Part shown: piece after piece, positions 6,780 through 57,245 of the stretch | How positions within the stretch are numbered: the first letter of the stretch is position 1 | Layout of the letters: every line of letters starts with the position of its first letter | NCBI GenBank assembly: GCA_030427245.1 | Contig: JAUHXA010000011.1 | Location: 1 to 64,000 of the forward strand | DNA: 64,000 nucleotides | Reading direction: 5' to 3' | DNA from: Bacteroidia bacterium | GTDB lineage: Bacteria > Bacteroidota > Bacteroidia > Chitinophagales > UBA2359 | The notes under the pieces: generated by a model | The model's input: the letters and a program-made list of their open reading frames with translations, nothing else | Told to the model about the DNA's origin: nothing | Database searches by the model: none | Made by a program: the position numbers and the translations under genes

Positions 6780-8021
6780 ATGCCTCATTACAAACCCACT
6801 TCAAGACGCACCTTCCTCCAACAAACCACCTTAGCCACTTTCAGTGGTCTTTTGGGAACAGAAATAGCCTTTGCCGAACATATTTTTGAAGGATGGACAC
6901 CTTTAGCTCTCACTGACCTTGGCGACCCTTTCAGCTTGAAAGGCAAGCACAAAGATTTGGTGGTCTTAAACGACAAACCCATCAATGCCGAAGTACCTCC
7001 ACATTTACTAAACGACAAAATCACCCCTACTGACAAACTTTTTGTCCGCAATAATGGCATTCCACCCATTGAAGTAGATACAAAAAATTGGACACTGACC
7101 ATTGAAGGAGAAGCTGCAAAACAAAAAGTGGTTTTGACTTTGGCAGATTTGAAGTCCAAATTTAAGCATTACACCTACCAACTGACCTTAGAATGTGGCG
7201 GCAATGGGCGCAGTGAATTCAATCCTCCTGCAAAGGGCAATCAGTGGACAACAGGCGCAGTAGGAAGCCCCAAATGGACAGGTGTGAAATTGAAGGAGGT
7301 ATTGGAATATGTAGGAATAAACGCCAATGCGATCTATATCGGCTATTACGGTAAGGACACCCACCTTTCGGGCGACCCCAAAAAAGTGGTTATTTCGAGG
7401 GGTGTTCCAATAAATAAGGCATTGGAGGAAGAAAGCCTGATAGCTTGGGCGATGAATGGCGAAGATTTACCGCTTCAAAATGGTTATCCTTTGCGACTGG
7501 TGTTCAGCGATGTGCCTGCTTCGACTTCGGGCAAATGGCTCTACAAAATCGTGGTGCGGGACCGTGTTCACGATGGCCCAAAAATGACGGGTCAATCCTA
7601 TCGAGTACCTTGCGAACCCGTTGCAGCAGGTTCGACAGTAGCCGACGAAAAAATGTGCATCATTGAAGATATGCCTGTCAAATCCCTGATTACTTACCCC
7701 AAAACAGGGGCAGTCATTACACTTGGGAGAACCTTGGACATTTCGGGTCAAGCTTGGGCAGGAAAATTAGCTATCAAAGAAATGCACTGTTCGATAGACT
7801 ATGGCGCAACTTGGCAAAAATGTACTTTAGACGCACCCGCCAACCGATATGCTTGGCAACATTGGAGTGCAAAACTTTCTTTTCCTCAAAAAGGTTACTA
7901 CGAAATTTGGGCAAGAGCAACGGATGGAAATAGTGAAATGCAGCCGATGGTTTTGCCGGGTTGGAATCCAAGAGGGTATTTGAACAACGCCTGTCATCGG
8001 ATTGCAGTGATGGTAAAGTAG
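6780..8021 (+). CDS. Tat-exported sulfite-oxidase-family molybdopterin oxidoreductase
   Basis: A periplasmic molybdenum enzyme of the sulfite oxidase family. The N-terminus carries a twin-arginine signal (SRRTFLQ, residues 8-14), fitting export of a folded cofactor-bearing protein. The Moco-ligating cysteine is Cys139 in LECGGNGR. The C-terminal 130 residues form the Mo-co dimerisation domain (LITYPKTG...GQAWAG...WARATDG). A one-haem cytochrome gene follows 69 bases later, the arrangement of sulfite:cytochrome c oxidoreductases (SorAB). Sulfite is thus a likely substrate but not proven; other members of the fold act on other oxyanions. 413 residues. Confidence 0.87.
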   Translation: MPHYKPTSRRTFLQQTTLATFSGLLGTEIAFAEHIFEGWTPLALTDLGDPFSLKGKHKDLVVLNDKPINAEVPPHLLNDKITPTDKLFVRNNGIPPIEVDTKNWTLTIEGEAAKQKVVLTLADLKSKFKHYTYQLTLECGGNGRSEFNPPAKGNQWTTGAVGSPKWTGVKLKEVLEYVGINANAIYIGYYGKDTHLSGDPKKVVISRGVPINKALEEESLIAWAMNGEDLPLQNGYPLRLVFSDVPASTSGKWLYKIVVRDRVHDGPKMTGQSYRVPCEPVAAGSTVADEKMCIIEDMPVKSLITYPKTGAVITLGRTLDISGQAWAGKLAIKEMHCSIDYGATWQKCTLDAPANRYAWQHWSAKLSFPQKGYYEIWARATDGNSEMQPMVLPGWNPRGYLNNACHRIAVMVK

Positions 8022-8090
8022 GTCGGATTTTTAGTCCGAATAAAGTTTAGATTCTTTATTTTTGAACGGAACAAACTGTATTCTACTTTT

Positions 8091-8573
8091 ATGAAAGACA
8101 AACGAATACTGAATCTCATTTCCTTCATCCTCAAAGGAACTTCAATGGTGATTCTTATGCTGATAGCGGCTATTTTTTGGGTATTTTATACCGATACGAT
8201 TGCTCCTCATGCCCAAAAACTACAAATAGAAAAAGACCAAAAATTGCAGGAACAGAAAAAAACGATGGAAGAAAACCCGATAAAAGATGGGATTCATGTA
8301 GCTACTGGATTTGCGGAAGGAGAGGGTTTAGAGATGGTGATAGCAACTTGTACGGCTTGTCATTCTGCCAAATTGGTGACGCAAAACCGAGCAACTCGTG
8401 AAAGTTGGGAGCAGATGATTCGGTGGATGCAAAAAACACAAAATCTTTGGGATTTGGGCGAACAAGAGGAAATCATCCTCGACTATCTGGCAAAATACTA
8501 CGCTCCCGAAAACACAGGACGACGGAAGTTGTTGACCGATATTGAGTGGTATGAATTGGAGGAAGAGGATTAG
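8091..8573 (+). CDS. Membrane-anchored mono-haem c-type cytochrome
   Basis: A 160-residue cytochrome with one transmembrane anchor (about residues 12-35) and a single haem-binding CxxCH (CTACH, about residue 92). Candidate distal ligands are methionines in the EQMIRWMQKTQ helix. It probably receives electrons from the upstream molybdoenzyme and passes them to the respiratory chain, as SorB does for SorA. A TATTTTTG element at 8057-8064 could give it a promoter of its own, but co-transcription is more likely. The CDS ends 18 bases before the next gene. Confidence 0.85.
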   Translation: MKDKRILNLISFILKGTSMVILMLIAAIFWVFYTDTIAPHAQKLQIEKDQKLQEQKKTMEENPIKDGIHVATGFAEGEGLEMVIATCTACHSAKLVTQNRATRESWEQMIRWMQKTQNLWDLGEQEEIILDYLAKYYAPENTGRRKLLTDIEWYELEEED

Positions 8574-44113: not shown

Positions 44114-45478
44114 ATGAATTTACAAACACTAATTCAACAAATTGAGGAAGGAAAAAAAGAGTTGGATGCTTTGCGTCCAATTTCTCCAGAACGTGAGGCG
44201 AAAATCAAACAAACTTTTCGCTTATGGTGGAACTATCACTCCAATGCGATAGAAGGAAATCAATTGACCTTGGGTGAAACTGTTTCCTTGATTCTTTATG
44301 ATTTAACGGCAAAAGGAAAATCATACAAAGACCACCGAGAGGTGAAAGGACACAATGAAGCCTTATTGTGGATTGAAGAAATTGTAGCCGAAAATCGTCC
44401 CATTACTCAAACGTTTGTTCGTGAGCTTCACCAAATGTTGCTGAAGGAATCTTACGATTCTCCGGCGATTACCCCAACAGGTCAAACTGTTCAAAAGAAA
44501 ATCAAGGTAGGGGAGTATAAAACAACGCCCAATCATGTTCGAACTCCAACAGGTGAAATTTACCACTATGCCTCGCCAGAAGAAGTGCCTGCAAAAATGG
44601 ATGATTTATTGAGGTGGTACGAACAGGAAAAAGACGATTTACACCCTCTGATTTTGGCAGCTACTTTCCACTATCGATTTGTAAAAATTCATCCTTTTGA
44701 TGATGGAGATGGCAGAATGTCAAGGGTTTTGATGAATCTAATTTTGATGCAAGGCGGATATCCGCCTGCCATTATTAAAATGGAAAAACGCAGTGAATAT
44801 TTGGCAGCTTTGAGTGAAGCGGATTCAGGTGATTTAGAAAAGTTTATTCTATTTGTAGGCGAATGTTTATTGGAGTCCACTGATTTGTATGTGCGAGGTG
44901 CAAAGGGTGAAAATATTGGTGAATCGGATGATTTAGATAAACAGATTGCGCTATTGAAATTGCAGTTGAAGAACAATCCCAAAATAGAAGATAAGCTAAT
45001 AAAGAGAAGTGCTAAAATAGAAGAAGAACTATTTGAAAAAACTTTCAAACCACTTTTTTTGAGTGTTGGAGACAAATTATCTCAATTTGATGAACACTTT
45101 CTATTAGTACAACATGGATTACAAATAAAAAATACTTTTATTAAGTATGCTGACTTGTTATTGTATAGCAAAGAGCAATTTTCTGAATCATTAATTGATG
45201 TACAAAGAATCATTTTAAGTTTCATGTGGGCGCAACCTAAATTTCACACAAAAAATCCGAATTTAATACACAAAGGAATTGAAATTTCATTGCACACACA
45301 TGAATACAATATAAAAACTGTTGATTTAGAAGGCATGAAAACGTTTACAGCTAACGAGCATTTATTCGCTAATAAATATAATATTCAATTAACTTCAAAA
45401 GAAATCAACCAAATCGTTACTATTATAACTGAGTCTGTATTGAAAGAAATTCAAGAAAAAACTAATGCCAAATTATAA
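44114..45478 (+). CDS. Fic family protein with GDGR variant motif
   Basis: A 454-residue class II Fic protein. The inhibitory helix SNAIEG (residues 43-48, SxxxE[G/N]) precedes the Fic core. The catalytic motif is HPFDDGDGRMSR with His193, and Asp199 replaces the usual Asn of GNGR, a substitution that may change nucleotide or metal handling. Residues about 270-454 form an extra C-terminal domain that is more AT-rich in DNA and Lys/Ile/Asn-rich in protein than the core, and which I do not recognise. Typical Fic enzymes AMPylate proteins. It forms an operon with the upstream DUF2087 gene. Confidence 0.87.
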   Translation: MNLQTLIQQIEEGKKELDALRPISPEREAKIKQTFRLWWNYHSNAIEGNQLTLGETVSLILYDLTAKGKSYKDHREVKGHNEALLWIEEIVAENRPITQTFVRELHQMLLKESYDSPAITPTGQTVQKKIKVGEYKTTPNHVRTPTGEIYHYASPEEVPAKMDDLLRWYEQEKDDLHPLILAATFHYRFVKIHPFDDGDGRMSRVLMNLILMQGGYPPAIIKMEKRSEYLAALSEADSGDLEKFILFVGECLLESTDLYVRGAKGENIGESDDLDKQIALLKLQLKNNPKIEDKLIKRSAKIEEELFEKTFKPLFLSVGDKLSQFDEHFLLVQHGLQIKNTFIKYADLLLYSKEQFSESLIDVQRIILSFMWAQPKFHTKNPNLIHKGIEISLHTHEYNIKTVDLEGMKTFTANEHLFANKYNIQLTSKEINQIVTIITESVLKEIQEKTNAKL

Positions 45479-47515: not shown

Positions 47516-48565
47516 ATGAGCGACAACAATTCCAACCAACCCAAACTAACTCCCGTCAGTGAATTGGGAGAATTTGGCTTAATTGAGCATTTGAACAAAA
47601 ACGCACGTAATAGCAATGCCAGTACTTTGAAGAGTATTGGTGATGATGCGGCAGTGATTCAATACGAAAAAGACAAGGTGACAGTCATTTCTACCGATTT
47701 ATTGGTCGAAGGAATTCACTTTGATATGGTTTATACACCTTTGAAGCATTTGGGCTACAAAGCAGTGGCAGTCAATCTTTCGGATATTTACGCCATGAAT
47801 GCTACTCCTCGACAAATTACTGTTTCGATGGCTGTTTCCAGTCGTTTTACGGTGGAAGCATTGGACGAAATTTATGCAGGAATTCACACCGCCTGCAATA
47901 CTTTTGATGTGGATTTGATTGGAGGCGATACGAGTTCTTCTCGCTTGGGTTTGGTCATTAGCGTTACGGCAATTGGTGAAGCGAAAGCAGAAGATGTGGT
48001 GTATCGAAATACCGCACAAGTTGGTGATATGATTTGTATGACGGGTGATTTAGGTGGCGCTTATTTGGGCTTGCAGATTTTGGAGCGTGAAAAGCAAGTG
48101 TTTTTGGCAGATTCCAATATGAAACCCGATTTAACAGCCTCTAAATACTTGGTTGCTCGACAATTGAAGCCCGAACCTCGCAACGATATCATTGAGATTC
48201 TACGCAATATGAAAATCAAACCGACTGCAATGATTGACATTTCGGATGGTTTGTCGTCTGACTTGTTGCACATCTGCAATCAATCAAATGTGGGTTGTGA
48301 CCTTTTTGAAGAGAATATTAAGCTACATCCTGATACGCTCGAAACAGCTATGAAAATGGGTTTGCCACCTTTTACTTGTGCCTTGAGTGGAGGCGAAGAC
48401 TATGAATTACTGTTTACGGTGAATCCCAAAGATGGAGAACGTTTGCGAGAAATCCAGGGCTTTTCGATTATCGGACGCATCACAGAAGCTACAAAAGGAC
48501 GGTATCTTTATACTCAAAAAGGGGTGAAGCATGAGTTGGTGGCGCAAGGGTGGAAGCATATTTAG
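47516..48565 (+). CDS. thiL: Thiamine-monophosphate kinase
   Basis: Phosphorylates thiamine monophosphate to thiamine diphosphate. A 349-residue member of the PurM/ThiL superfamily with GELGEFGLIEHL-type opening, GDDAAV (about 42-47), STDLLVEGIHFD (about 60-71), GGDTSSS (about 139-145), MTGDLGGAYLGL (about 177-188), DISDGLSSDL (about 241-250) and SGGEDYELLF (about 300-309). The ATG at 47516 is chosen; the frame is open to a TTG within the terminator stem. Its stop codon overlaps that of the convergent anti-sigma-like gene (both use the bases TTAG at 48562-48565). Confidence 0.95.
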   Translation: MSDNNSNQPKLTPVSELGEFGLIEHLNKNARNSNASTLKSIGDDAAVIQYEKDKVTVISTDLLVEGIHFDMVYTPLKHLGYKAVAVNLSDIYAMNATPRQITVSMAVSSRFTVEALDEIYAGIHTACNTFDVDLIGGDTSSSRLGLVISVTAIGEAKAEDVVYRNTAQVGDMICMTGDLGGAYLGLQILEREKQVFLADSNMKPDLTASKYLVARQLKPEPRNDIIEILRNMKIKPTAMIDISDGLSSDLLHICNQSNVGCDLFEENIKLHPDTLETAMKMGLPPFTCALSGGEDYELLFTVNPKDGERLREIQGFSIIGRITEATKGRYLYTQKGVKHELVAQGWKHI

Positions 48566-49200
48566 GGCATCAACTCTTTTCGAACGAAAAACATCCCCAT
48601 CATCAAATCCGACCTATTCCAAAGTTTCCAATAATAACGACCGGGAGCAAGTTGTCTTGTATCTACTGTGAAATTTGTAGTAGAAGCCTTGAAACGTTGG
48701 GTCAAAAGTGCTTCCATTTTATTGTTTTCGATGCGGACTTTGAAGTCATTGGATAAAGCTTGTTTCAAAACAAAGTCTATTTTATCACTGCAATTTTGCC
48801 CATTTACAGGTTGGACGACTTCAATACTTCCAGCCCGTTCTGCCGCCTCCAAAAGTTCCTCATATTCTGTCACAGGTCGAAACATCGCTAAGAGTTCGTC
48901 TAAAGTATAGGTAGTTTTGGATTCTTCCTTCAATAAATCTTGCACATTAAGGTGGTGTGTTTGGTCAATTGCTTCAATATTTGCAACAAATTCATCTAAA
49001 TTGGCATCGCTTTCGGCCTCCTCCAACAGGCCCACTAAATAGTTTTCCTCCGCAGTTTCTTGAATCAGTTGACGCACAAAAACCTCTTGCATTAACTCCA
49101 CATTGTCAGCCATTTCTTCTACGAAATTTTTCGATTCATCCTCGCTCAAACGACCGTAAATGTAATCCTCTATCCGATTGATTTCTTTTGTAGTAAACAT
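48562..49200 (-). CDS. Soluble anti-sigma-like protein, partner of the ECF sigma factor
   Basis: 212 residues, not assigned to a named family. Residues 5-45 (RIEDYIYGRLSEDESKNFVEEMADN) match the helical start of many Bacteroidota anti-sigma proteins (GxLSxxE...DNxEL). There is no zinc motif and no transmembrane helix, so it should be cytoplasmic. Acidic middle (55-110). The C-terminal 80 residues (KVRIENNKMEALLTQRF, LAPGRYYWKLWNRSDLM) look like a small beta-sandwich. It lies 87 bases downstream of the sigma gene on the same strand. Anti-sigma function is inferred from position and the N-terminal pattern. Confidence 0.65.
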   Translation of the reverse strand: MFTTKEINRIEDYIYGRLSEDESKNFVEEMADNVELMQEVFVRQLIQETAEENYLVGLLEEAESDANLDEFVANIEAIDQTHHLNVQDLLKEESKTTYTLDELLAMFRPVTEYEELLEAAERAGSIEVVQPVNGQNCSDKIDFVLKQALSNDFKVRIENNKMEALLTQRFKASTTNFTVDTRQLAPGRYYWKLWNRSDLMMGMFFVRKELMP

Positions 49201-49287
49201 ATATAGTTCATAAATAAAAATTAGTGTAAAACGCTATGTCTTGTTTGTCAGTAGTCAGTAAAAATAATCCTACTTTCCGCATCTATA

Positions 49288-49977
49288 TCAACGTACATAT
49301 TTTTCAATAAAAGCGTGAATCGCTCGATTATCACACAATTCTCGGTAATACACACTCTGCTTAATCCGATTTGCCAAAGCCGTTTTACAATCATGAATTC
49401 CTTTTCGAGAAGCACCTTCTGATATTTTTAGAAGTTTGGCAATTTCTCGATGTGATTTCTCAGCTCCATACAGCAGCATTATTTTCTTGCAGCGTTCAGT
49501 CAAAGATTGAATCATGCCCACCACTATTTTGTGCAATTGCTGAATTTGCAAAGCCTGTTCTACATCTTCGTCTGTCGCTTGCTCTGGAAACTGTGATAAA
49601 TCATTCGTTGAATCTTCGTCTTCCCCACTTCTTTTCCGTTGTAGCATCACCTTTACATGACTCATAGCATCCTGCTTTCTATCCCGCAACTTTCGTAACC
49701 ACAGCTTTCGGCAAACCGCATAAGTATAGGTGGAGAATTTTGCAGTTAGTTGAAAATTATTTTTTTCACATTGTTTTCTAAAGATTTTAAAGCTGTCTAA
49801 AATAAGGGTTCTAGCATCGTCAATCGTTCCTCCGTTTGCTGTCACCAAACGCTCTATCATACCATATACTTCTTCGTAACATTGCTGCAATACGTTCCAA
49901 TCGTTCTGCAAAAAAGCCTGAATGATTTTTTGATTTTTGGCTTGCTCCAATGGATTTAAGGTTCGTTCTCTACTCAT
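49288..49977 (-). CDS. ECF-type RNA polymerase sigma factor
   Basis: A 229-residue sigma factor with only regions 2 and 4. Region 2 spans about 35-95 (YGMIERLVTANGGTIDDART, FSTYTYAVCRKLWLRKLRDR, the -10-binding helix). An acidic, variable linker (about 105-140) leads to region 4 (about 150-205, LTERCKKIMLLYGAEKSHREIAKLLKISEGAS). The tail (to 229) has additional helices. The start is the ATG at 49977; a TTG seven codons upstream is rejected. The gene is divergent from the exported CARDB-like protein and TPR-CHAT gene, with a 319-base AT-rich gap holding motif copy 2 and no ORF. Confidence 0.9.
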   Translation of the reverse strand: MSRERTLNPLEQAKNQKIIQAFLQNDWNVLQQCYEEVYGMIERLVTANGGTIDDARTLILDSFKIFRKQCEKNNFQLTAKFSTYTYAVCRKLWLRKLRDRKQDAMSHVKVMLQRKRSGEDEDSTNDLSQFPEQATDEDVEQALQIQQLHKIVVGMIQSLTERCKKIMLLYGAEKSHREIAKLLKISEGASRKGIHDCKTALANRIKQSVYYRELCDNRAIHAFIEKYVR

Positions 49978-50010
49978 TGTATGCCTTTTTTGATACAAAA
50001 TGTTACCTCA

Positions 50011-50031
50011 GTCATGAATGAAAATTAAAAT
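50011..50031. repeat. Recurring AT-rich motif, copy 2
   Basis: Core GAATGAAAATTAAAAT, 33 bases upstream of the sigma factor ATG. See copy 1 at 43592. Confidence 0.6.
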
Positions 50032-50296
50032 ACAAATCAAAATGAAAGTTTAAATGGACTTAAGGCCTTTCTTTGGAAGGTAAGACAAGATAAAAAAAAA
50101 TTGGCTTTTATGTTGGCTACTCCTTTTTTAAAATAAAATTTTAGTCAAAAACTGCTTAATATCAACTCGAAATAAATGTAGGAAAATAAATTACAACTTT
50201 TAAAGGTAACAATTTTGAAGACTTTGGTAATGTAGAAAGTGTACGACACAGAAAACATTTTTTCCTTTTATAAACCTTTTAAATTTTATTAAAACC

Positions 50297-50908
50297 ATGA
50301 CAACTTCAAAATTTCAATTCAGATTCAGCAGCATTTTGACAAGCATCGTATTCGCTTTAACTATCCTATTTTTTGGAGACGCAACTGCTCAAATAAAGAC
50401 ATTTCAAGGACCTAAAGTAACCGACATCAGTCCGCAAACAAGAGACAGACTCAATGCCAACTTGAAACCTTGTCCAGATTTGATGGCAGAATCCATCCAA
50501 TTTGAAATTGTTGGCGTAAAAAGTACACATGTATTACGAGTAAGAGTAACAGGTATCGTGAAAAATATTGGTTCAAAAGAATTTCGCTCCAATGCTCGCC
50601 AACAGTCTGTAAATCTTTACATTGGCAGTAGATGGATGGCAACAAAATCAAACATCACTTCTATTGCACCAGGTGAATCTGTATCCGTTTCTTATACGAT
50701 GGACTTTCACCTATCCAACGAATTTCCAGAAACAGCAAAAGTGAGTATCAGCTACGACCCCGATATCTTGAACGATGGCAATCCAATGAATGATGATTGT
50801 ACAACTGCCAACAATACGGCTACTCGCAGCATGGCAGATGTTCACGATATTCCCTACTTGAGACCCTCACCACCTTCTAAAACGACAACGATTCGCAAGT
50901 CAAAGTAA
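50297..50908 (+). CDS. Exported CARDB-like protein
   Basis: 203 residues: signal peptide (about 1-31, ending ATAQ) and one beta-sandwich resembling CARDB/DUF11-type adhesion modules (about 60-165; VTGIVKNIGSKEFRSNARQQ, VNLYIGSRWMA, APGESVSVSYTMDFHL, NDDCTTANNTAT). A basic, proline-rich tail (PSPPSKTTTIRKSK) follows, without a T9SS signature. Cys58 and Cys169 could pair. Function unknown. It lies between the divergent sigma gene and TPR-CHAT, oriented with the latter. Confidence 0.72.
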   Translation: MTTSKFQFRFSSILTSIVFALTILFFGDATAQIKTFQGPKVTDISPQTRDRLNANLKPCPDLMAESIQFEIVGVKSTHVLRVRVTGIVKNIGSKEFRSNARQQSVNLYIGSRWMATKSNITSIAPGESVSVSYTMDFHLSNEFPETAKVSISYDPDILNDGNPMNDDCTTANNTATRSMADVHDIPYLRPSPPSKTTTIRKSK

Positions 50909-50927
50909 GCAGCGAATAACAGCGCTT

Positions 50928-50976
50928 TCAAAACTCCAAACTCTCAATAAGCTCAATCGCTTGTTGGGAGTTTTGA
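50928..50976 (+). promoter_or_regulatory. Long hairpin between the CARDB-like and TPR-CHAT genes
   Basis: Outer arms TCAAAACTCC (50928-50937) and GGAGTTTTGA (50967-50976) and inner arms CAATAAGC and GCTTGTTG (50945-50952/50959-50966) form an 18-bp interrupted stem with a 7-base bulge. No T run follows, so it could be an attenuator or mRNA stabiliser rather than a simple terminator. Confidence 0.55.
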
Positions 50977-51022
50977 TATTTGGGTATTTCCTTCAAATTG
51001 GTTAAATTTATTGACTCCAAAC

Positions 51023-54000
51023 ATGAACGTTCAAGCAATTGCCATTATGCCCACTACCTCTCTTACCCAACAAGCAGATTTTATTTGCAAAGAAGCGAAG
51101 GAGCTTCAACAGCAGGGAATCTATGTCAAAGCATTGGAATATTTTGAAGAAGCAAGTCGCCTGTTTCAAGAAAATCAGGAGTTGAATAAATACTTGGATA
51201 CAGAGTTGCAACGCATTGAGTTGCAGCTGGAATCCTTTGTTTTTGAAGGCATGTTGGAGCGTTTGAAGGAGTTGCTGCAATATTGTCTCTCCCATTTTGG
51301 AAAAAATCACCTCAAAACAGCTACTTGCTATCGAAACTTAGGACATTTTTACCGATATGCTGAATACCGTACCGATGAAAGAAAAATAGCCTATCAACAA
51401 TGTTTGGCAAATTATACTCTGTATGGCGAAATTATTCAAGGATTGTATGGCAAAAATGATCCAAAATTGTTTAAGCATCATTGTGATTTGGGAGATTATT
51501 GGATGATAAAGCAAAATAACTCCAAAGCTTTTGTCCATTTTGAGAAAATGATTGCTTTATTAAATCAGCAAAATACAGGGAATGTCAAGGATTTAGGAAC
51601 CTATTATCGAAAAATAGGCCTTTGTTGTTTTTATCAAGGCAATTATCATAAGGCACTCAATTGGTATCAGAAAGCATTGAATGTTTGCCTCAAAAACTAC
51701 TCACAATTCCATCCCAAGACTGCTTTGATTTATCAAGCGTTGGCAGTTGGTTATCAAGCCATAGGAGATGTGGACAAGTCGCTTTTGTATGTCCAACAAG
51801 CTTTTGATATTCATTCTGAAACATTGGGTGTCAGCAACTTCCAAACCTACTATTCTTACAATCTTATTGGACGAGCTTACCTCAACAAATACGATTTTTC
51901 AAATGCTATCCTCTATTTAGAAAAGTTCATTAACAACTTACAACAGCATCACCCAACACTGAAAGAATACCTCGCTTTCGCCTACCTCAATTTGGGATAC
52001 TGCTATTTTGACCAACAAAAAACCAAACAAGCGAAGCCCTACTTTGAACAAGCGTTGACACTTTTTCAACAGTTTGACAACCAAAACAATCGTGCAAAGG
52101 TCTACTGTCTATCAGATTTGGGAAGGTGTTATTTGAAGCACAGGGAATTTGAGAATGCTCTTTATTGCCTAGAAGAATCATTGAGGCTGTCCCTCAAAAT
52201 TTCTGGTGAACAGCATCCTTGCGTGGCGGATAGCTATTCTGTCTTGGGTGACTACTACCTTCAAAAACAGGACTTTGATACTGCTTTGTGGCATTTACAA
52301 AAAGCTATTGACAGTTTGTCAAGTGATTGGGCAAACTTGAATATTTACAGTTTACCGTCTTTATCCCAAACAAAACATTACATCAATCTCCTTGAAGTGC
52401 TAAAAGGAAAGGCTCAGGCTTTTTATCAACGTTATCAATCCTCTTTTCAATTAAAAGATTTGGAAGCTGCTGCGGCTACTCATCTATTGGCAAATCAAAC
52501 AATTGATGCCCTAAGGAGTAGTTATCATTCCGAAACTTCTAAATTAATTTTGGTTTCAAGAGCGCAAGCTATTTATGCTTCTGCGATTGAAGTAAACTTG
52601 TGCCTTTACCAACAAACCCAAGACAATCAATACTTGAAAACCTGTTTTCGGTATTGTGAAAAATCAAGAGCGATAGTACTGCTCTCTCAACTCAAAGATG
52701 CAGAAGCCAAAATCAATGCTCATATACCCGCCGATTTGTTGCAAAAAGAATTTGATTTGCGAACAAGTCTCAATTATTTGGACAAACAGATTCTCACGTA
52801 TGAAAATGCGAAAGAAAAACAGTTGCGTACTCTCCAAACAAAACGCTTCGATTGTTTGCAAGAATACAACGATTTGATTTCTACTTTTGAAGCCGATTAT
52901 CCACAATACCATGAACTGAAATACAATATTGAAGTCGCTTCTATTGAAGCTCTACAAACCAAATTGAAGGAAGGGGAAGCTATTGTTGAGTATTTTGTAG
53001 GAGAAAAATATTTGTTCACTTTTTTCATTACCTGCAATGATTTTCAAGTATTTCAACAAGAAAAACCCAGGGTTTTCGAACAGATGGTGGAAGATTTCAA
53101 CGAGGCTATCCACATAATGTTGAAAAGTGATTACCTCAAATTGGCCTATCAACTCTACTTACTACTTTTCGATTCATTGCCACTTCAAATCCCCTGTGGT
53201 AAGAATCGCAAATCTGCTATTTCCAAAATTCTTATCATACCTGATGGTGTATTGACTCAATTGCCCTTTGAAGCCCTACTGACAACCGAGGTAAATTCTA
53301 AGAATCCTTATGCAGATCTACCTTATTTGTTGATGAAATACGATGTTTATTACCATTATTCGGCTACTTTGTGGTATCAAGATCAAGGACTATCCAAATC
53401 CTTAGACGAACTTGCAGAAAGCTTTGTCGGTTTTGCGCCTATATATAGAGATGAAAATGGAGAGTTGTCAGAAAGAAAGGAATCTGGACTGGCAGAAGAA
53501 ATTACTCGAAGTATAACGATTAGAGGAACAGACTATAAAGAGTTGATATACTCCGAAAAAGAAGTCAACGAAATCAAGTATTTGTTTGACAATAAAGCTC
53601 ATAAAACACAAATTTTCCTCCACGAAAAAGCCTCTATTCTCAACTTCAAAAAGTCATTGAAGGGCTTCAAATACTTACACATTGCAGCACATGGCTACTA
53701 CAACGCTGAAACTCCTGAATATTCGGGCATTCTTTTTTCACCTGAAAAAGAAGCTCAAAAAGAAAGTGAAGCTATTTTCAGTTTGGGAGATGCCTATCAC
53801 CTGCAATTGGATGCCGACTTAGTGGTATTGAGTTGTTGTGAAAGTGGTATCGGCAAATTGGCGAAAGGAGAGGGCATGATAGCCATGAATCGAGGTTTTC
53901 TTTCGGCAGGGGCAAGCAATGTAATCTACACACTCTTCAAAGTTTATGACAAGGCTTCTTGTGAATTGACTCAAAGTTTGTTTCAACACATTTTGGAAGG

Positions 54001-54103
54001 TAAAAACTATGTACAGTCATTGAAAGCTGCCAAATTGCAGTTAATTCAAAGCGGAAAAGCTACACCTAGGTTGTGGGCTGGTTATGTTTTGATTGGAGTA
54101 TAA
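51023..54103 (+). CDS. TPR-CHAT caspase-like protease protein
   Basis: 1026 residues, no signal peptide or helix, so cytoplasmic. Residues about 10-460 contain a ladder of tetratricopeptide repeats (for example GTYYRKIGLCCFYQGNYHKA, AYLNLGYCYFDQQKTKQAKP, ADSYSVLGDYYLQKQDFDTA). A helical linker (about 470-640) leads to a C-terminal CHAT domain (about 650-1026), a caspase-fold cysteine protease. The catalytic dyad is intact: His890 in HIAAHGYY and Cys939 in LSCCESGIG. It ends with SLKAAKLQLIQSGKATPRLW, typical of CHAT. The ATG at 51023 is chosen over a TTG at 51011. Its neighbours suggest cleavage of a regulatory protein in response to a signal sensed by the TPRs; that is inference. Confidence 0.9.
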   Translation: MNVQAIAIMPTTSLTQQADFICKEAKELQQQGIYVKALEYFEEASRLFQENQELNKYLDTELQRIELQLESFVFEGMLERLKELLQYCLSHFGKNHLKTATCYRNLGHFYRYAEYRTDERKIAYQQCLANYTLYGEIIQGLYGKNDPKLFKHHCDLGDYWMIKQNNSKAFVHFEKMIALLNQQNTGNVKDLGTYYRKIGLCCFYQGNYHKALNWYQKALNVCLKNYSQFHPKTALIYQALAVGYQAIGDVDKSLLYVQQAFDIHSETLGVSNFQTYYSYNLIGRAYLNKYDFSNAILYLEKFINNLQQHHPTLKEYLAFAYLNLGYCYFDQQKTKQAKPYFEQALTLFQQFDNQNNRAKVYCLSDLGRCYLKHREFENALYCLEESLRLSLKISGEQHPCVADSYSVLGDYYLQKQDFDTALWHLQKAIDSLSSDWANLNIYSLPSLSQTKHYINLLEVLKGKAQAFYQRYQSSFQLKDLEAAAATHLLANQTIDALRSSYHSETSKLILVSRAQAIYASAIEVNLCLYQQTQDNQYLKTCFRYCEKSRAIVLLSQLKDAEAKINAHIPADLLQKEFDLRTSLNYLDKQILTYENAKEKQLRTLQTKRFDCLQEYNDLISTFEADYPQYHELKYNIEVASIEALQTKLKEGEAIVEYFVGEKYLFTFFITCNDFQVFQQEKPRVFEQMVEDFNEAIHIMLKSDYLKLAYQLYLLLFDSLPLQIPCGKNRKSAISKILIIPDGVLTQLPFEALLTTEVNSKNPYADLPYLLMKYDVYYHYSATLWYQDQGLSKSLDELAESFVGFAPIYRDENGELSERKESGLAEEITRSITIRGTDYKELIYSEKEVNEIKYLFDNKAHKTQIFLHEKASILNFKKSLKGFKYLHIAAHGYYNAETPEYSGILFSPEKEAQKESEAIFSLGDAYHLQLDADLVVLSCCESGIGKLAKGEGMIAMNRGFLSAGASNVIYTLFKVYDKASCELTQSLFQHILEGKNYVQSLKAAKLQLIQSGKATPRLWAGYVLIGV

Positions 54104-57102: not shown

Positions 57103-57127
57103 GGAGTAGTAATTAGCTATTAATAAT

Positions 57128-57226
57128 CCAAAGCATCGACCAAGCCCCCAAAGTATCAGCCAAACATCCAAAGCATCGACCAAGCCCCAAAGTATCAGCC
57201 AAACATCCAAAGTATCAACTAAGCAC
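57128..57226. repeat. 20-bp minisatellite, five copies
   Basis: Units of the type CCAAAGYATCRRCYAARC repeat five times with alternating variants, so a 40-base higher-order period also exists. Short, degenerate and without spacers, so not CRISPR. It fills most of the gap before the enoyl-CoA hydratase gene. Confidence 0.85.
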
Positions 57227-57245
57227 CAATAGAAAAGAAAATTAA

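Follow-up and report, generated by a model that had tools for sequence, protein, structure and literature searches.

In a 64,000-nucleotide stretch of DNA from a Bacteroidia bacterium (hereafter the window), genes for a TPR-CHAT protease, an ECF sigma factor and a soluble anti-sigma-like protein were found side by side, and together they probably represent a CRISPR-free system in which a separase-type protease releases a sigma factor. We consider it likely that this set works as a regulated-proteolysis switch: the TPR-CHAT protein would cut the anti-sigma factor after Arg122, with Asp976 of the protease holding this arginine, and thereby free the sigma factor. Four observations form the basis of this reading, namely the gene set itself, the matching of compartments between anti-sigma factor and protease, a conserved arginine in the linker of the anti-sigma factor, and the co-variation of this arginine with Asp976. 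Beyond these, we infer the binding of sigma and anti-sigma factor, the cleavage, the direction of signalling, the regulon, and the signal.

Products of the four genes

The four genes that an earlier note on this DNA had placed here, encoding the sigma factor, the anti-sigma-like protein, a CARDB-like protein, and the TPR-CHAT protein, were confirmed in position (Table 1). The sigma factor gene is followed after 87 bases by the gene for the 212-residue protein, both on the minus strand. Divergent from this operon, the CARDB-like and TPR-CHAT genes lie on the plus strand, where they are probably co-transcribed. The identical gene order, with a double CARDB, was detected at a paralogous locus (L036). 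The flanking genes, read from the sequence, are mostly what we take to be housekeeping genes, with a gene resembling thiamine-monophosphate kinase on one side and, further along the other, one resembling the DNA polymerase beta-clamp.

Table 1. Coordinates of the genes and of the proposed functional residues in the window
Feature	Position	Strand	Evidence
Soluble anti-sigma-like protein, 212 aa	48562..49200	-	ORF, alignments, model
Arg122 codon, proposed P1 residue (R|AGS)	48835..48837	-	Conserved Arg-small in relatives and co-variation with CHAT D976
ECF-type sigma factor, 229 aa	49288..49977	-	Profile match; directly upstream of anti-sigma gene, same direction
Exported CARDB-like protein with signal peptide	50297..50908	+	Pfam match below cut-off, signal peptide
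Cytosolic TPR-CHAT protease, 1026 aa	51023..54103	+	Pfam CHAT, alignments, model; no signal peptide, no transmembrane helix
Catalytic His890 codon	53690..53692	+	Invariant in CHAT alignment
Catalytic Cys939 codon	53837..53839	+	Invariant in CHAT alignment
Asp976 codon, proposed S1 aspartate for P1 Arg	53948..53950	+	Positional equivalent of Asp2151 in Chaetomium separase

The 1030-aa open reading frame of the protease matched the Pfam family CHAT (PF12770) with 154 bits (cut-off 24), and TPRs are located at about residues 155-435. Both residues of the catalytic dyad, His890 and Cys939 (numbering counted from the ATG at 51023), were invariant in an alignment of 34 relatives. With a domain above the cut-off and a His-Cys dyad, the product belongs to the CHAT family, and the intact dyad on a TPR scaffold described in the earlier note was borne out. 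Among solved folds, Csx29 of Craspase was closest to the structure model of the protease (mean pLDDT 86, pTM 0.85), as seen in two matches (7y9x_B, Z 30.7, rmsd 11.0 over 533 residues; 8eex_B, Z 30.3, rmsd 7.5 over 551). Separase was matched as well (5u1s_A, Z 27.0; ctSPD 5fby_A, Z 25.5, rmsd 3.3 over 313).

The sigma factor is encoded by a 236-aa open reading frame with a likely start at the ATG at 49977. Its sigma-2 and sigma-4 regions matched the NCBIfam model sigma70-ECF (TIGR02937) with 48.7 bits against a cut-off of 42.9, which agrees with its earlier assignment to the ECF group. For the exported protein described earlier as CARDB-like, the signal peptide was upheld, but the CARDB match (20 bits) stayed below the Pfam cut-off (22.7 bits).

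No family was matched by the 212-aa protein in profile searches. It had previously been called helix-free, which holds with respect to transmembrane helices (best 19-residue hydropathy 0.32) but not with respect to the fold: in the model, the N-terminal ~115-120 residues are helical and are followed by a C-terminal Ig-like beta-sandwich. The linker carries the motif 'YTLDELLAMFRPVTEYEELLEAAER|AGS', and the C-terminal domain ends with GRYYWKL...FFVRKELMP. The beta-sandwich resembles DUF3244 and type IX secretion C-terminal domains (8qb1_A, Z 9.3, rmsd 2.0 over 77 residues; 3d33_B, Z 9.2). Sigma and anti-sigma factor, which are encoded in the same frame, were also modelled as one read-through chain with the stops read as Gly. 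This gave a mean pLDDT of 83.6 and a pTM of 0.53 but no interface score, and sigma binding is therefore proposed from gene order and homology.

With regard to gene order, the anti-sigma gene followed the sigma gene on the same strand, with a gap of -63 to +298, in 35 loci. It thus lies directly downstream of an ECF sigma gene, as is characteristic of class I anti-sigma factors. With regard to homology, the N-terminal domain recurs in most relatives from outside the window's family, where one transmembrane helix and then TPRs follow it. At three loci (L139, L150, and L151), the anti-sigma factor bears the zinc motif HxxxCxxC, a transmembrane helix, and an Ig-like domain akin to the window's; at two further loci (L142 and L164), zinc motif and Ig-like domain occur without a transmembrane helix. 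The window's protein itself has neither zinc motif nor transmembrane helix. Through the relatives with HxxxCxxC or a transmembrane helix, it is linked to class I anti-sigma factors, and it therefore seems to have descended from this class as a membrane-free form. No sequence homology of the anti-sigma factor to Csx30 or to other solved proteins was detected, and its profile matched no Csx30 PDB chain at the sequence level at E up to 5.

Recurrence of the gene set and compartments of its products

Alongside 45 CHAT matches, the window's genome (7.58 Mb) encodes some 20 proteins related to the 212-residue protein, nearly all of them directly behind an ECF sigma gene. Within this genome, nine of the 20 anti-sigma-like genes have a CHAT domain at a distance of at most 4 kb, against 1.1 expected (P = 3e-7); likewise, 15 of the 45 CHAT domains have a sigma factor gene at most 4 kb away, against 3.6 expected (P = 1e-6). 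The trio was also found in other genera of the window's family and, in total, in at least eight Bacteroidota families. Among 56 CHAT-centred loci chosen without regard to sigma factors, 28 contained a sigma/anti-sigma pair within about 4.5 kb. The co-occurrence that the earlier note had named as a check is conserved across Bacteroidota. Seen from the other partner, about 22 of the 26 anti-sigma hits of a phylum scan (same class) were located at most 9 kb from a CHAT gene. A scan of genome contigs with a shorter alignment recovered only seven loci.

Compartments were assigned by hydropathy rules and agreed in all 70 anti-sigma/CHAT pairs after one start-codon correction. A membrane-spanning anti-sigma factor was paired with an exported CHAT in 42 pairs and a soluble anti-sigma factor with a cytosolic CHAT in 27, the corrected pair (L012) apart. 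The latter appeared mixed because its open reading frame had been taken to begin ahead of the first Met, which is residue 33, and the mismatch was rejected as an ORF-start artefact. In the window's family, 27 soluble/cytosolic, six membrane/exported, and no mixed pairs were counted. Within the window's genome, the pairs at L009 and L016 are membrane/exported and all remaining ones soluble/cytosolic; about four of its 41 long CHATs are exported, and those at L009 and L016, beside membrane-type anti-sigma factors, are two of these. Five compartment changes were placed on the sigma tree, with three independent pairs on well-supported branches, all in step. Independent co-changes of compartment amount to three to five on the sigma tree and to only two on the CHAT tree.

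The exported gene between sigma factor and CHAT was not matched in compartment to the CHAT. In the window locus and at L036, L018, L026, and L144, a signal peptide is present on the neighbour but not on the CHAT. The CARDB protein is an unlikely substrate because it is exported, whereas the CHAT of the window is cytosolic, and other exported neighbours are likewise unlikely to be CHAT substrates in cytosolic loci.

The linker arginine and the proposed S1 position of the protease

Soluble anti-sigma factors share the motif 'YTLEELlaxFxPVPxYExxLxxxxR[SAGN]' immediately N-terminal of the Ig-like domain, and membrane-type anti-sigma factors share 'LYAxYFxPYxxxxxxR[GSN]' immediately past the membrane helix, so that the linker Arg is followed by G, S, A, or N. 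This Arg was present in 37 of 40 membrane-type proteins (plus one with Lys), among which it is the most conserved column, and, as counted after local realignment, in about 42 of the 45 soluble proteins. A profile-profile comparison aligned the two types through the linker Arg (probability 97.5, E 2.9e-11). In the protein of the window it corresponds to R122, which lies, in the model, in the coil connecting the last helix to the first strand.

On the side of the protease, D976 sits 37 residues past the catalytic Cys and, by position, would be the counterpart of Asp2151 in the separase of Chaetomium. Separase requires a P1 Arg, with which this aspartate forms a bidentate salt bridge (PMC10317155). 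An S1 aspartate in the protease and a conserved Arg in the proposed substrate suggest, at the level of sequence only, a separase-like Arg specificity for the CHAT of the window.

Asp was absent from position 976 in five of the 70 CHAT partners, namely (i) L011 and (ii) L012, both with Gln; (iii) L175, with Ala; (iv) L197, with Glu; and (v) L186, with Met. The first four are paired with anti-sigma factors that lack the Arg, carrying Lys in L011, L012, and L175 and Met in L197. Both residues are changed in L175, and both are retained in its sisters L176 and L199. Two exceptions were detected: L186 has kept the anti-sigma Arg with Met at the S1 position, and L177 has the Asp but no clear Arg. Two further loci (L017 and L187) are ambiguous with respect to this pairing. 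An out-of-sample set of 20 further loci was then considered, for which the expectation had been written down before the loci were read. Its only Arg-less close pair (L222) had Met in place of Arg and Glu in place of Asp, and the other 16 close pairs had Arg and Asp.

When all CHAT columns were compared over 85 pairs with kinship ignored, D976 was the best of 293 for loss of the Arg (p = 1.1e-6; next column 0.0019). Conversely, the linker Arg was the best of 233 membrane-type anti-sigma columns for loss of the Asp (p = 0.0014; next column 0.028; kinship again ignored). The independent co-changes of Arg and Asp number three to four; since independent co-changes are few, for this residue pair as for the compartments, tree-aware sign tests cannot reach 0.05. 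Taken together, the matching compartments and the pairing of S1 and P1 residues indicate that the CHAT protein probably cuts the anti-sigma factor.

Proposed switch, alternative readings and related systems

In the proposed switch, the soluble anti-sigma factor would keep the sigma factor inactive via its helical N-terminal domain until a signal, read through the TPRs, activates the TPR-CHAT protein. The activated protease would then cut the linker that joins the sigma-binding and the Ig-like domains, on the C-terminal side of Arg122, with Asp976 holding the Arg as in separase. Upon cleavage, the N-terminal piece of the anti-sigma factor would lose its grip or be degraded, and the freed sigma factor would turn on a regulon to which the operon encoding it and the divergently oriented CARDB-CHAT operon probably belong, resulting in positive feedback. 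In most relatives, the same step would take place in the periplasm, where a CHAT that is exported and often tethered to the membrane would cut a membrane-spanning anti-sigma factor just outside the membrane, equivalent to the site-1 cut of an RseA/DegS-like cascade. Of the protease-to-sigma relay suggested in the earlier note, the conserved module survived and gained the pairing of compartments and of S1 and P1 residues; its possible link to defence was not supported.

The main rival to cleavage of the anti-sigma factor is that the CHAT gene is a mere target of the sigma factor, forming a local regulon with the exported protein, and that its product cuts something else. The CHAT strand was opposite to the sigma operon in 53 of the 70 loci (22 of these divergent), as is typical for regulators and the genes they control, and exported proteins are located between the sigma operon and the CHAT. 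We regard this as unlikely, however, since it leaves unexplained both the compartment matching of anti-sigma factor and CHAT and the joint loss of D976 and the linker Arg. The two readings can be compatible, in that control of CHAT by the sigma factor would provide positive feedback on cleavage. Less probable still, the linker Arg may be cut by another protease or be structural, with the CHAT sensing or scaffolding the anti-sigma factor without cutting it. Some sigma/anti-sigma pairs without a CHAT within 4.5 kb do retain the Arg, and the membrane-type site is located where generic site-1 proteases act; yet the catalytic His was retained in 70 and the Cys in 69 of the 70 partner CHATs, and it is the S1 position itself that correlates best among the CHAT columns.

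It also appears very improbable that the trio serves in defence, as a descendant or an ancestor of Craspase, with the TPR-CHAT protein sensing phage and the sigma factor driving a defence programme. Csx29 is the closest fold to the protease, and the logic matches that of Csx29-Csx30-CASP-sigma (PMC10028731). However, no informative PADLOC match was obtained for the four genes, the only neighbour matching PADLOC models being a Fic protein (44114-45478). Moreover, CRISPR-like repeats were not found at 40-62 kb, no Csx30 relative was detected, many paralogues exist per genome, partner proteins are exported, and the version found in most of the phylum is periplasmic. With these PADLOC results and neighbours that are presumably mostly housekeeping genes, the defence role put forward earlier found no support. 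Finally, a merely coincidental proximity of the genes, in a genome this rich in CHAT genes (45 matches in 7.6 Mb), is ruled out for practical purposes by the within-genome enrichment and by the recurrence at the comparative loci, in families with few CHATs each.

Craspase (Cas7-11 / Csx29 / Csx30 / CASP-sigma) and the window trio have in common a TPR-CHAT protease directed against a soluble ECF sigma inhibitor, with cleavage being proposed here, and the Csx29 fold of the protease (Z about 30). They differ in the inhibitor, which has no detectable relation to Csx30, and in the absence of a CRISPR array and Cas7-11 from the scanned neighbourhood: PADLOC matched no cas genes among 14 gene products of 44-58 kb, and no gRAMP was seen among the scanned neighbours. 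Csx29 cuts Csx30, an anti-sigma factor, at residues 427-429, around Met427 (PMC10028731). In an HMM alignment it has Ser at the position of D976, whereas the CHAT of the window has Asp and is predicted to cut after Arg. Most relatives of the window trio also differ from Craspase in being periplasmic. By sequence and within the scanned neighbourhood, the trio is thus not a member of the type III-E CRISPR systems, but it probably works like the Craspase output module, with an Arg-specific, separase-like CHAT, in line with the stand-alone, CRISPR-independent module suggested earlier, which is conserved in Bacteroidota.

Release of an ECF sigma factor by a cut in its anti-sigma factor, as proposed here, is shared with RseA-DegS-RseP/sigma-E of E. 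coli and with RsiW/sigma-W, and the membrane-type relatives would also share the position of the site-1 cut just outside the membrane. Unlike in these systems, the protease of the window is a TPR-CHAT protein of cysteine clan CD encoded beside the pair, not a PDZ serine protease, and the window version is wholly cytosolic. With separase and bacterial CHAT proteases it shares a TPR-like helical scaffold, a CHAT/caspase fold, the S1 Asp, by position, and the proposed P1 Arg; separase, however, cuts cohesin, whereas the proposed substrate here is an anti-sigma factor. ECF54 sigma factors have CHAT, subtilase, and carboxypeptidase neighbours, and proteolytic control has been proposed for them (PMC8999054); they were described without an anti-sigma factor, whereas in the window a dedicated one follows the sigma gene. 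Kaur et al. reported caspase (EACC2) genes near an ECF sigma factor and a TPR (DUF1822) protein (PMC8195603); these encode a caspase with EACC2 rather than a TPR-CHAT protein, and no anti-sigma substrate was proposed there. The literature searched, which was mostly non-subscription, contained no earlier account of the trio, and a prior mention of the neighbourhood is possible.

With somewhat less confidence than for the locus itself, we favour a Bacteroidota-wide family of sigma-factor switches, each with a dedicated TPR-CHAT protease of separase type that cleaves its cognate anti-sigma factor after the linker Arg. Such a family would comprise periplasmic and cytosolic forms whose partners switched compartment jointly, with co-evolving S1 and P1 residues, and Craspase would represent a single instance, captured by CRISPR, of a CHAT-to-sigma logic that extends beyond it. 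The predicted cut after R122 would depend on C939 and D976, and the pairs Glu/Met, Gln/Lys, and Ala/Lys are predicted to have altered specificity. If this holds true, the protease-to-sigma output of Craspase would be a widespread bacterial signalling logic that is not specific to CRISPR, a large group of CHAT proteases without known targets would be provided with physiological substrates and a predicted cleavage site, and a caspase/separase-type site-1 protease would be added to the regulated proteolysis of anti-sigma factors.

Surroundings of the trio and CHAT genes of its genome

About 3 kb from the sigma factor, the anti-sigma-like protein and the TPR-CHAT protease, the window encodes a Fic-domain protein matching the PADLOC SoFic/PDC-S04 models. 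Short intergenic direct repeats with a period of ~20 nt, located between two flanking genes, had no CRISPR-like character. In the whole genome (7.6 Mb), 45 CHAT matches were detected, an expansion of unusual size; by appearance, only about 4 of the 41 long ones are exported.

Positions of features in the window and in the compared loci (locus-internal numbering)
Locus	Position	Feature
Window	44114-45478	Fic-domain protein
Window	57106-57243	Direct repeats
L015	6552-7040	CHAT remnant
L024	11363-11887	CHAT remnant
L037 (own genome, C148)	7443-8507	Sigma/CHAT ORF
L042	7745-10990	Divergent CHAT beside sigma/anti-sigma pair
L063	6569-12036	Sigma/anti-sigma pair near LRR-Roc-COR GTPase
L071	7048-8748	DUF389/Ig-like fusion
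L146	5334-7172	Lipoprotein

Exported genes and the Ig-like domain at related loci

Between sigma operon and CHAT gene, locus L146 carries an exported gene for a thiol-activated-cytolysin-like lipoprotein (Pfam); in other loci, ricin lectin, hemopexin, beta-helix, PKD or type IX sorted proteins occupy this position. At L071, a DUF389 membrane protein is fused to the Ig-like domain with which the anti-sigma family ends at its C-terminus.

Apparently rearranged modules and possible alternative partners

In the 354-residue ORF of L037, an N-terminal segment from a large ECF sigma factor runs into the second half of a CHAT domain, with His and Cys present; the ORF looks like a deletion fusion of a sigma/CHAT locus. 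Truncated CHAT remnants adjoin sigma/anti-sigma pairs at L024 and L015, which suggests that sigma/anti-sigma/CHAT modules undergo decay and turnover. Near a same-family sigma/anti-sigma pair at L063, an LRR-Roc-COR GTPase gene stands in place of the CHAT gene. At L042, the CHAT protein beside the pair is cytosolic but highly divergent and belongs to another type; therefore, sigma/anti-sigma pairs may undergo replacement of their partner.
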